Origin: a virus
Length of the DNA stretch: 22,182 nt
IMG/VR virus record: IMGVR_UViG_3300030012_000037
Location: 1,686-23,867 of that record
Direction: 5' to 3' (one strand)
In this document: in pieces, positions 15,768 to 18,745 of the stretch
Layout: the number at the start of each line of letters is the position of its first letter
Numbering within the stretch: the stretch's first letter is position 1
Made by a program: the position numbers and the translations under genes
The notes under the pieces: generated by a model
What the model saw: only the letters and a program-made list of their open reading frames with translations
The model's database searches: none
Told to the model about the DNA's origin: nothing

Positions 15768-15863
15768 TTAATAACTTGATTTAGACATCTTAAGAGACAT
15801 CAATTTACTTTTAAGTTTACCAGACTTCTTTTTCTTATTCTTTTTAGTAGGTTTATTAGGCAT
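15768..15863 (-). CDS. 31-residue lysine-rich ORF after the terminator
   Basis: Reads MPNKPTKKNKKKKSGKLKSK then LMSLKMSKSSY; 12 of 31 residues are lysine and none is acidic. It fills the space between the capsid terminator and gene 11 almost exactly: its ATG abuts the terminator T-tract and its TAA is 3 bases from the next ATG (TATTAAACAATG). It has no Shine-Dalgarno. The start MPNKPTKKN resembles the MPNNKNNPSKK start of the ORF after the portal gene. It could be a real basic head/DNA-binding peptide or a leader coupling translation to gene 11. Short length keeps confidence moderate. Confidence 0.45.
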   Translation of the reverse strand: MPNKPTKKNKKKKSGKLKSKLMSLKMSKSSY

Positions 15864-15915: not shown

Positions 15916-16902
15916 TTATGAAGAAGACAATTTAATTGTTGCTGCACACTCTGGTCTAAGGATTCCATGACCAAGTGCGTACTTGGCGATCATCAATGTT
16001 GATTGATACATAATTCCGTAGTCTGCACCTGAGATCTCAGTTGTCATGTCTTGCAACTTGACTGTGCCGACTGCTGATTTATGGAATACCAAACCTAGCG
16101 TCTTGCTGTCATCTCCGTTATAGGCATTATTAGCACCTGAAGGATTAGAGCCTACGTTAGATTGTGGTACGTTGTTAGACATCATGATAGGGATGCCAGC
16201 TACTTGTGTAACTGTACCAGCAGCAACAGATCCATTACCCTGTGGGTTGAAATCTGTGTTCATAACTCTAGTAGCAGATTCAGGAATCTTATAAAATTCT
16301 GCTGGTGGTAACACACAGAATCTATCTGTGCTTGGAATGTCACGCTTATCGAACTCTTCAGCAATATCATAGATAGCTGCTACAAGTTCATCACCAGTTA
16401 CGTTAGCTGAAGCTGTATTACCAGAAGCAAGGGTAAGAACAAAACCGCCATCTCCACCACTAAGAGTAGTTGATGCACGACTCGCATTAGCTATTACCTT
16501 CGCTACGTTTTGATCGTATGTCCTAGCCAGAGCCTTACCTAATTCAGCAGAATAAGTTGCACGAACATCATAATGGTTCTTCAATTCGTCCAGCCTTGCG
16601 ATTACTGCTTGAGCAATGAGCATATCATCTATGTTGATGATCTTCTCATTAGCCTTAATCTGGTTTGCTCCTACGAGGGGAGTGCCGATTGTATGATACG
16701 CAGCAGTCGCAGTTCCTAAAACTGGGAAACTGGCACTTTTTCCAGAACTAATTGTTCTGACAGAATGTAGTTGCTCGTTGAAAATATTATTCTGGGCAAA
16801 AGATGTCAGAACTTCTCCTGAGAAAATTTTCAAAAAAAGTTCGTCAAAGTTTGTACCCGAATTATTAACAAGACCGAGCCTACTTACAGTTGCGTTAGCC
16901 AT
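15916..16902 (-). CDS. gp10: Major capsid protein (T7 gp10A-like)
   Basis: 328 residues (T7 gp10A is 345), an HK97-fold shell protein. Landmarks shared with T7: LFLKIFSGEVLTSFA (22-36), RTISSGKSASFPVLG (49-63), a central NHYDVRATYSAELGKAL (109-125), and near the C-terminus SAVGTVKLQDM and AKYALGHGILRPECA (about 306-320). It ends IKLSSS with a stop, and the -1 frame at the end closes after a few codons, so no T7-like 10B extension is seen. The base composition is distinctly richer in G+C than the neighbouring virion genes (27 of 60 bases at 16501-16560), consistent with codon selection in the most abundant virion protein. An intrinsic terminator follows directly. Confidence 0.97.
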   Translation of the reverse strand: MANATVSRLGLVNNSGTNFDELFLKIFSGEVLTSFAQNNIFNEQLHSVRTISSGKSASFPVLGTATAAYHTIGTPLVGANQIKANEKIINIDDMLIAQAVIARLDELKNHYDVRATYSAELGKALARTYDQNVAKVIANASRASTTLSGGDGGFVLTLASGNTASANVTGDELVAAIYDIAEEFDKRDIPSTDRFCVLPPAEFYKIPESATRVMNTDFNPQGNGSVAAGTVTQVAGIPIMMSNNVPQSNVGSNPSGANNAYNGDDSKTLGLVFHKSAVGTVKLQDMTTEISGADYGIMYQSTLMIAKYALGHGILRPECAATIKLSSS

Positions 16903-17015: not shown

Positions 17016-17282
17016 CTAGCATTTCCACTTGCGTAGTGCAAGTGCTTTTCTAGTTGGCCTACCTTTGCTGTCTTTCATTGCTCCTTTGACACCCGACATC
17101 CTTGCACAAAAAGATTTCTTTCTTGCTTTTTCTCTAGGTGTCAGTCCACTTTTTTTAGTGACAGGTCGTTGCAACTTTGAACCTGTAGCAGCATTTATTC
17201 TTCTTCTCCCACTTTCAGACAAACCTCCTGTAGGATTTTTGTCCTTTTTTCTGAGAGATAAAGTTTTTCTGCGTGGAGACAT
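17016..17282 (-). CDS. 88-residue basic phage protein (FCARMSGVKG...RKALALRKWKC family)
   Basis: Strongly basic throughout. The order is a Lys/Arg-rich start, NPTGGLSESGRRRINAATGS, KLQRP, then KKSFCARMSGVKGAMKDSKG and RPTRKALALRKWKC at the extreme C-terminus. I recognise this 'NPxGGLSxxGRxxxNxxTGSxLxxPV...RxSFCARMSGxxGPMK...RKALALRKWxC' layout as a widespread short family in marine phages (DUF6321, from memory), sometimes found close to capsid genes. Two cysteines (59 and 88) are in the conserved parts. It is preceded by a 37-base gap after the 79-residue gene and followed by a 113-base gap before the capsid gene. Function unknown; capsid or DNA association is inferred. Confidence 0.85.
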   Translation of the reverse strand: MSPRRKTLSLRKKDKNPTGGLSESGRRRINAATGSKLQRPVTKKSGLTPREKARKKSFCARMSGVKGAMKDSKGRPTRKALALRKWKC

Positions 17283-17319
17283 GAACTACAGATAAGAGTA
17301 GTTAAATAAAATATAACAG

Positions 17320-17559
17320 TTATGCTGTTTTTTGTCGTCTTTTATGGTTATAACTTATTCGTTTACCGCTAGTTTTTGATCGTTTAAACTTTAACTTTTC
17401 TCTATTGCTTAATTCACTAGCAGTTTTAGGTGTCTTACTACTAATTCTTTTAGATGGTCTGCAAGCAGGGTAGCCACGATTCTCTCCTTTCTTACGTCCA
17501 CAGGGTTTACCTGTTTTGACATCTACCCATTTCTCTTTGAACCATCTATCAAGACTCAT
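17320..17559 (-). CDS. 79-residue basic protein with WFKEKWVDV motif
   Basis: MSLDRWFKEKWVDVKTGKPC starts the protein, followed by GRKKGENRGYPACRPSKRIS and a long Lys/Arg/Ser/Thr tail. The (S/T)LxxWFKEKWVDI....CGR......YPxCRPS arrangement is a recurrent small family in phages and large algal viruses as I remember it, possibly related to DUF5872. The two cysteines (20 and 33) flanked by CGR and CRPS could form a structural or metal site. The tail resembles DNA-binding disordered tails. AGG 5 bases before the ATG is a weak ribosome site. It starts inside the previous stop (ATGA). Its position among basic genes next to the capsid suggests a minor head protein, unproven. Confidence 0.8.
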   Translation of the reverse strand: MSLDRWFKEKWVDVKTGKPCGRKKGENRGYPACRPSKRISSKTPKTASELSNREKLKFKRSKTSGKRISYNHKRRQKTA

Positions 17560-17708
17560 TTGCCTACTTTCTTTTGAGCTATAGTATGTGCTTTTTTAAA
17601 AGACATACCACTACGCATATTCTTTTTCATTTCATCCATGTGTTTTTTTGAATGATGCTCTGAATGTTTTTTCAGAGTACGCATTTGACTAAGAGTTAGC
17701 TTTGCCAT
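17556..17708 (-). CDS. 50-residue His/Lys-rich microprotein
   Basis: MAKLTLSQMRTLKKHSEHHS, then KKHMDEMKKNMRSGMSFKKAHTIAQKKVGK. It has 12 Lys, 2 Arg, 5 His and 6 Met against 3 acidic residues. It looks like two helices (about 6-30 and 36-48) joined at RSGMSF. I recall near-identical layouts (LTLxQxxTLKKHxxHHSxKHM...GMSFxxAHxxAxKKVGK) in short phage proteins near head genes; no function is known to me. It overlaps the EF-hand gene by 20 bases upstream and the 79-residue gene by 4 bases (ATGA) downstream, so translational coupling is likely. The His cluster could bind metal or nucleic acid, but this is speculation. Confidence 0.78.
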   Translation of the reverse strand: MAKLTLSQMRTLKKHSEHHSKKHMDEMKKNMRSGMSFKKAHTIAQKKVGK

Positions 17709-17811
17709 TTTTCTTTTTAAGTTGACGGACTAATAAAAAATCTTTTTTAGAAAGCTTACCATCACCATCTTTATCAAGACTTTTCTTTTGTTTGGCTGAT
17801 AGTTTTTTCAT
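17689..17811 (-). CDS. 40-residue EF-hand microprotein
   Basis: MKKLSAKQKK, then S11-L12, then a canonical 12-residue EF-hand loop DKDGDGKLSKKD (13-24), then FLLVRQLKKKNGKANS. The loop has Asp at positions 1, 3 and 5, Gly at 6, a hydrophobic residue at 8, Ser at 9 and an acidic residue at 12 (Asp rather than the usual Glu), so calcium binding is chemically plausible. Short flanking helices fit one EF-hand, which normally pairs with another, so a homodimer would be expected. Outside the loop it is strongly basic (13 Lys). A GGAGGAGG sequence lies about 12 bases before the ATG. The start overlaps the previous stop (ATGA) and the 3' end overlaps the next gene by 20 bases. The reading frame is clear; function unknown. 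Confidence 0.75.
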   Translation of the reverse strand: MKKLSAKQKKSLDKDGDGKLSKKDFLLVRQLKKKNGKANS

Positions 17812-17954
17812 GCTTTAGTGTAACCTCCTCCTGCTGCTTTGTATTGCCTAACAAGCTGACCGCTTGCATAAGCACTAGGCCATTTCTTGACCCTTGCTTT
17901 TACTTTAGCCTTTATCTTTGCATACAGGGTTGGATTTGTAGGTTTGTTAGCCAT
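17808..17954 (-). CDS. 48-residue basic microprotein with PSAYASG...YKxxGG motif
   Basis: The ATG overlaps the scaffold stop (TAATG). The 48 residues contain 9 Lys, 2 Arg and no acidic residue. Order: polar start MANKPTNPTLY, a basic amphipathic helix AKIKAKVKARVKKW, then PSAYASGQLVRQYKAAGGGY. I recall the NPxLYxxVKxxxK...PSAYASGxLVxxYKxxGG pattern as a recurrent short family in marine phages and some bacteria (possibly related to DUF5872); no function is known to me. Its TGA overlaps the next ATG (ATGA). It is the first gene of a run of basic small proteins between scaffold and capsid, and DNA or head binding is inferred from charge only. Confidence 0.8.
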   Translation of the reverse strand: MANKPTNPTLYAKIKAKVKARVKKWPSAYASGQLVRQYKAAGGGYTKA

Positions 17955-18745
17955 TAGCCTAGTACCTTAGAATCTTTCATTCGATCATAAACAGATAATG
18001 TATAAGCTTCATCCTTACCATATCTAGGGTCAGACATAGCTTTAGTAATTTCTGCCTGTGTTTTAAATGTATTTGTTTGAGAAGCAGGTGTTCTTCCATT
18101 TATAAGTTGAGGTTCATAACCTTCGGAAGCTCGCATCTGTGCAGCAAATCCCTGTACTGCAACCTTAATCATAGTAGGATCTTGTGTATCTAAAATACTA
18201 TCAAAGGCTTTTAGTGTTGCGTCTGGTACATTCTTTTGTGTCCACTCTCTAAGCTTGGCATATCCTTCTTCTCCTCCTACAACAGACTGTATATCTTCTA
18301 ATTGACTTTGTTGTATATCAGCAGCAGGTGTACCAGTATTACCTCCTAATCCATTTAAGTATGTATCTATAACTTGTTTAGAAAAACCTGCTTCAGCTAA
18401 TTTGCTGTAATCATCTTCAGTTATAGTTCCTGTATCTTCAAATGTTTTAGATATAACTTGTGGGTCAATACCAACTTCTTCTAATACAGAAGCTAGACCA
18501 TCACCATAAATTTCAGAAGGGTTATATTCTTCATCTGATGTTTCTTCTGTAGATTCTTCTGGTTGGTCTTCAGCTTTGCTTTCATCTATAGCACCAAGCT
18601 TGCCTTCTAGTTCTTTGTAACTACTAACCATATCTTCTACAGTTTTAAACTTGCCAGCATACAGTCCGTTTTCATCTTTTAAACTTTCAATGTCTTGTGC
18701 AGACATTGGTGGTGTTTCGTTAGCTTGTACTTGTGATGATGTCAT
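17954..18745 (-). CDS. gp9: Capsid assembly scaffolding protein (T7 gp9-like)
   Basis: 263 residues (T7 gp9 is 307). Scaffold proteins fill the procapsid and direct capsid protein assembly, then leave before DNA packaging. The N-terminal half is markedly acidic (about 55-80: DESKAEDQPEESTEETSDEE), as usual in this family. The C-terminal half has the pattern seen in T7-like scaffolds: GGEEGYAKLREWTQKNVPD near 167-185, LINGRTPASQTNTFKTQAE near 215-233, then a DPRYGKDEAYTLSVYDRM helix that should bind the capsid protein. It sits between portal and capsid as in T7. Its stop overlaps the next ATG by one base (TAATG). No strong Shine-Dalgarno precedes its start. Confidence 0.93.
   Translation of the reverse strand: MTSSQVQANETPPMSAQDIESLKDENGLYAGKFKTVEDMVSSYKELEGKLGAIDESKAEDQPEESTEETSDEEYNPSEIYGDGLASVLEEVGIDPQVISKTFEDTGTITEDDYSKLAEAGFSKQVIDTYLNGLGGNTGTPAADIQQSQLEDIQSVVGGEEGYAKLREWTQKNVPDATLKAFDSILDTQDPTMIKVAVQGFAAQMRASEGYEPQLINGRTPASQTNTFKTQAEITKAMSDPRYGKDEAYTLSVYDRMKDSKVLG

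Follow-up and report, generated by a model that had tools for sequence, protein, structure and literature searches.

What are five tiny, strongly basic genes doing between the scaffold gene and the major capsid gene of a marine T7-like phage? We named these genes A to E in the order in which they follow the scaffold gene in the window (the whole stretch of 22,182 nucleotides that was analysed) and compared them with their relatives in other phages. The comparison suggests that A to E are likely small basic internal head proteins, which are packaged with the DNA and perhaps injected.

Organization of the gene island

The original prediction had described five genes joined by overlaps of 1, 4, 20 and 4 bases and a gap of 37 bases, and all these ORFs are present as described (Table 1). 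The junctions are -1 (scaffold to A), -4 (A to B), -20 (B to C), -4 (C to D), +37 (D to E) and +113 bases (E to capsid). The products were also said to be strongly basic, with about +10 or +11 for the three shortest ones, which agrees with the computed values of +11, +10 and +11 for A, B and C. The summed charge of A to E is +77 versus -27 for the scaffold protein.

Table 1. The island genes and their neighbours in the window (net charge calculated as K+R-D-E)
Feature	Position	Strand	Length (aa)	Start	Net charge	Remarks
Scaffold gene	17954..18745	-			-27	5' of A; phrog_1052 head assembly and Phage_T7_Capsid matches; acidic
Gene A	17808..17954	-	48	ATG	+11	
Gene B	17689..17811	-	40	ATG	+10	
Gene C	17556..17708	-	50	ATG	+11	
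Gene D	17320..17559	-	79	ATG	+20	
Gene E	17016..17282	-	88	ATG	+25	
Major capsid gene	15916..16902	-				3' of E; Gp10A-like, 216.7 bits
Sixth tiny basic ORF	15768..15863	-	31		+12	Lys-rich; between capsid and gp11-like genes

In several relatives, the slot of the sixth ORF is filled by Lys-rich ORFs of about 23-65 aa with varying sequence, and the 31-aa ORF of the window is probably the same kind of gene as the island members. At one locus (L011), the capsid/gp11-like slot holds a GLYANIHAKRKR protein, the motif of which resembles GLWDNIHAKRKR, located just past the targeting-like sequence of the E protein in phage P-SSM7.

Families and predicted structure

Gene A matches positions 1-39 of the DUF5872 profile (PF19197) with 44.4 bits, i.e. 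the N-terminal half with the 'WPSAYASG' module, while D matches positions 55-113, the C-terminal half, with 54.8 bits (cut-off 27.5). Members of this family, which is also annotated for the algal giant virus CpV-BQ1 (PMC12085832), have both halves in one protein, whereas in the window the two halves are encoded by two genes with B and C between them. Gene E matches positions 2-72 of the 72 in the DUF6321 profile (PF19846) with 86.8 bits (cut-off 28.5). C belongs to phrog_31838, a His/Lys-rich 'HSxHHxxKHM' family. B has a single EF-hand-like loop, DKDGDGKLSKKD (DxDxDG...D), followed by a Lys-rich tail; it stays below the curated Pfam cut-off (EF-hand_1, 19.0 versus 25.4 bits), and the loop is degenerate in several relatives. 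Since A and D are halves of DUF5872, the island is not made of five unrelated families, and the proposal that each gene represents a different small family holds for the other three only. A duplication origin of the five genes was considered as well and rejected, as they belong to different families except for A and D, which match different halves of DUF5872. The term 'undescribed' needs a similar correction, as A, D and E fall into families that are named and uncharacterised (DUF5872 and DUF6321/T4-GC119).

Cys20 and Cys33 are invariant in D, as are its W positions, and the invariant residues of E comprise Cys59 and Cys88 together with the non-basic G19, G20, L21, F58 and W86. The structure of E was predicted confidently as three helices (pLDDT 86.4, pTM 0.62). 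A search of the PDB with this model gave nothing useful (best E 5.6), while the significant matches in BFVD are phage proteins, most of them DUF6321; proteins that contain an E-like domain but bear the name of an AAA-domain or ferritin/Dps-domain protein are among the BFVD matches as well. The sequence search of the PDB returned one chance-level match for E (ribosomal uL29, E 0.7) and none for D, the structure model of which was set aside for its low confidence (pLDDT 66).

Conservation in related phages and in a second lineage

The median dN/dS among related loci is 0.25 for A, 0.33 for B, 0.23 for C, 0.15 for D and 0.20 for E, compared with 0.30 for the scaffold gene and 0.095 for the capsid gene, so that selection on the island resembles that on the scaffold gene and is weaker than that on the capsid gene. 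The proposed check of dN/dS below 1 in each frame thus gave medians of 0.15-0.33, and all five frames are under purifying selection and are more than chance ORFs. The gene order, for which a comparison with related phages had also been proposed, recurs in the scaffold/capsid slot. Among 40 related loci holding both the scaffold and the capsid genes, A (24/24), B (8/8), C (10/10) and D (24/24) lie between the two wherever they were found, and E lies there in 36 of the 40. All five genes occur in the isolate P-SCSP2, a Prochlorococcus phage, with order and location unchanged, and each of them is annotated there as a hypothetical protein. How easily such small genes are missed is exemplified by S-CBP4 (KC310804.1), whose E gene (17930-18133) is unannotated in the record. 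In S-TIP37 (L004:4747-7019), hli and psbA are located beside the E gene in the scaffold/capsid slot. The slot therefore also accepts late metabolic genes, and position alone is a weak argument because these two are not head proteins.

The genes are also found in a lineage with unrelated head genes. A total of 39 contigs carry the order A-D-C-E without T7-like head genes. In L142, the terminase large subunit is followed by A and D, then by the major tail protein, a B-like ORF of 40 aa (B', assigned by eye and position), C, E and portal; in the same order, L123 has terminase, D, E, a portal-like protein and a head scaffolding protein. The cassette of this lineage, A-D-(tail protein)-B'-C-E, is flanked by the genes for the terminase large subunit and the portal.

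Fusion proteins in T4-like cyanophages

Judged by its sequence, E is DUF6321 and the C-terminal module of T4-GC119 in T4-like cyanophages. The module was found in 542 phage isolate records. A host-gene origin was considered too; in a collection of 84,980 species genomes, E turned up in 74 contigs, almost all of them from MAGs, which fits a family carried by viruses. In most of the T4-like genomes read, the E-carrying gene lies between gp15 or gp16 and gp17, and elsewhere in P-SSM7; these carriers sit in a variable locus. The fusion reaches 880 aa in ACG-2014f and is predicted to be cleaved, whereas the window has separate genes of 48-88 aa for A, D and E. In phage S-SCSM1, ORF29 (517 aa) carries D, A and E in one polypeptide; SSCSM1_92 of the same phage was rejected as an E carrier in favour of ORF29. 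Profile searches found the order D-A-E in 19 and A-E in 51 distinct T4-like polypeptides, counts that are biased towards fusions because the loci were fetched with such a protein as the query. No homologue of B or C was found in the profile search of the T4-like loci, and a link between B and EF-hand-like stretches of an S-SCSM1 protein was dropped accordingly. The partner modules upstream of E are diverse (L165:7756-9240 and other T4-like carriers), and several of them have two Cys (CRLCKKKET, YYYCYTDKKCKPIP and CWKGY...C).

Cleavage-like and targeting-like sequences

In phage T4, L/I-X-E is the motif after which the protease gp21 cleaves, and the internal protein IPIII is directed to the head by its first 10 residues (PMC9026906). 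Relative to the GGL anchor in the E module, the pair E↓G/S/A (the arrow marking the putative cut) occupies residue position -13 in 47 of 63 distinct long carriers, and E↓G/S/A/D falls within -10 to -14 in 58 of them. Among 119 stand-alone E proteins, none has the site at -13, and a Glu-small pair at -12 to -14 occurs in two, one being the T4-like Syn1_112. When the upstream contexts were reduced to 31 with less than 40% identity, xxE↓G/S/A/D stands right before E in 26 of these unrelated contexts (0.106 expected per context), with a hydrophobic P3 at 20 of the 26 sites. The predicted cleavage product is similar in size to the stand-alone E proteins. On the other hand, the conserved Glu in front of E may belong to the domain itself in certain lineages and need not mark a cleavage site.

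A capsid-targeting regular expression, run over the loci in all six frames, matched T4 ipII and ipIII, the E protein of P-SSM7, about 20 genes following the fusion and one neighbouring gene at locus L208. The N-terminus of the P-SSM7 E protein is MKTYSQFIEE↓G, compared with MKTYQEFIAE↓A in T4 ipII/ipIII. In about 20 T4-like loci, the gene located 2-5 bases past the E-fusion begins with MK[SNT]FxQF[LMI][ST]E↓S or similar, and one more targeting-like gene is present at L203, where no E-fusion was called. The genes directly past the fusion (L252:44215-44535 and about 20 other T4-like loci) encode 101-119 aa, and from its targeting-like start this product looks like another internal head protein. 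A similar start, MKSFLQFLKE↓A, is found in the NMNAT of S-SCSM1 (ORF91, L251:3820-5049), a reported virion protein, which in view of this sequence is likely a packaged enzyme and perhaps an injected one. In A to E of the window, neither a capsid-targeting sequence nor a gp21 site was seen by inspection.

Carrier proteins in virions

Reports of the carriers in virions all come from T4-like cyanophages; for T7-like phages that have the island, no proteomic study was found. ORF137 of S-CREM2 (108049-109521), which carries DUF6321 with 40.8 bits, was detected in the published virion proteome with 4 peptides and 4.1% coverage (PMC10665884, Table 3). ORF29 of S-SCSM1 is labelled 'virion protein' in its record, and 45 virion proteins of this phage were detected by MS (PMC9602691). 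In the record of Syn1, the note 'similar to Synechococcus phage S-SM1 protein' is attached to structural proteins, to the virion-detected T4-GC190 and to T4-GC119, and is absent from terminases and replication proteins. We infer from this pattern that T4-GC119 was detected in the virions of S-SM1 (PMC3037559).

Comparison with known systems

The T4 internal proteins IPI, IPII and IPIII are small, basic and located in the head, and A to E are likewise small (40-88 aa) and basic (+10 to +25). Moreover, the capsid-targeting pattern and the cleavage rule are common to the T4 internal proteins and to the cyanophage carriers and their operon neighbours. However, family searches revealed no sequence similarity between the mature parts of the T4 proteins and the island families, and the T4 proteins bear a targeting sequence, whereas A to E do not. 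A to E are therefore not filed as T4-type internal proteins, and yet, by analogy, they probably work like them. E has homologues in the T4-GC119/DUF6321 proteins, in which the A and D modules are fused to it; these have been described only as hypothetical, structural or virion proteins. The gp6.7 of T7 is a core protein (PMC11784390). Together with gp7.3 it represents the small virion proteins of a T7-like phage, which are part of the core or helpers of nozzle assembly and are encoded at other positions than the island; the gp6.7 and gp7.3 families are not among the Pfam or PHROG matches of A to E.

Possible roles of the island proteins

Taken together, internal head proteins are favoured by a location within the head block of three unrelated lineages, by fusions that bear processing signals in phages with a prohead protease, and by the carriers reported in virions. 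Among the roles named in the original prediction, internal basic head proteins thus are the best supported, by way of the T4-like virion carriers and their cleavage-like and targeting-like signals, and we infer encapsidation in the T7-like phage of the window as well. One could instead regard A to E as cytosolic proteins that are made late, do not enter the virion and occupy the slot merely for late expression, like the hli and psbA of S-TIP37. We consider this highly improbable, given that the modules occur in reported virion proteins with such signals and that the head-block location recurs across the three lineages. It is unlikely, too, that they are assembly factors, which would assist the scaffold and be lost from the head as it matures: the translational coupling to the scaffold gene and the opposite charge would fit, and head assembly in T4 is slowed to about half when IPIII is lacking (PMC9026906), but the carriers are reported in mature T4-like virions.

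Two narrower versions of the internal-head-protein explanation differ in what the packaged proteins do. As DNA-condensing stabilisers, they would only neutralise and order the DNA in the head and would not be effectors, which is in line with +10 to +25 per protein, the Lys/Arg-rich composition and the adjacent capsid gene. However, E is predicted to fold compactly (pLDDT 86), several of its invariant residues are not basic, and W and C positions do not vary in D. A protamine-like role would not require the sequences to be so constrained; this version appears doubtful to us. Alternatively, they could be injected like the T4 internal proteins and act in the cell, e.g. against host nucleases. T4 internal proteins are small, basic and ejected, and IPI inhibits a restriction enzyme (PMC9026906); the T4-like carriers, moreover, occupy a variable locus, where their partner modules are diverse. 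But with dN/dS of 0.15-0.20, D and E show strong conservation by the standards of arms-race effectors, and no host target is known, and so injection for such a purpose is a fair possibility that we do not favour.

If A to E are internal head proteins, they would be translated straight after the acidic scaffold protein and would enter the procapsid, probably through affinity for the scaffold, with recruitment by charge (-27 versus +77) assumed by analogy with T4. They would remain in the head with the DNA and may enter the cell with it, as the T4 internal proteins do. T4-like cyanophages have a prohead protease; T7-like phages are not known to encode one. In the former, the D, A and E modules would be made as one polyprotein and presumably cut inside the prohead into pieces that match the stand-alone proteins in size, while the T7-like phages encode each module as its own gene. 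More tentatively, and with considerable doubt on our part, A to E might belong to a shared set of mini-proteins (two Cys being usual in A, D and E) that unrelated marine phages pack into their heads. These phages would be T7-like podoviruses, T4-like myoviruses and the tailed lineage whose head genes differ, and the families would extend to algal giant viruses; the toolkit would be encoded as an operon or a protease-cut polyprotein and would consist of injected effectors acting at the start of infection.

In view of the targeting-like start of the reported virion NMNAT, cyanophages may package enzymes and perhaps inject them. The island families are very common in ocean viruses and have had no function, and the comparison proposes a testable one for them, namely head cargo. 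Moreover, what one phage cuts from a polyprotein may be encoded as separate tiny genes by a phage for which no head protease is known.
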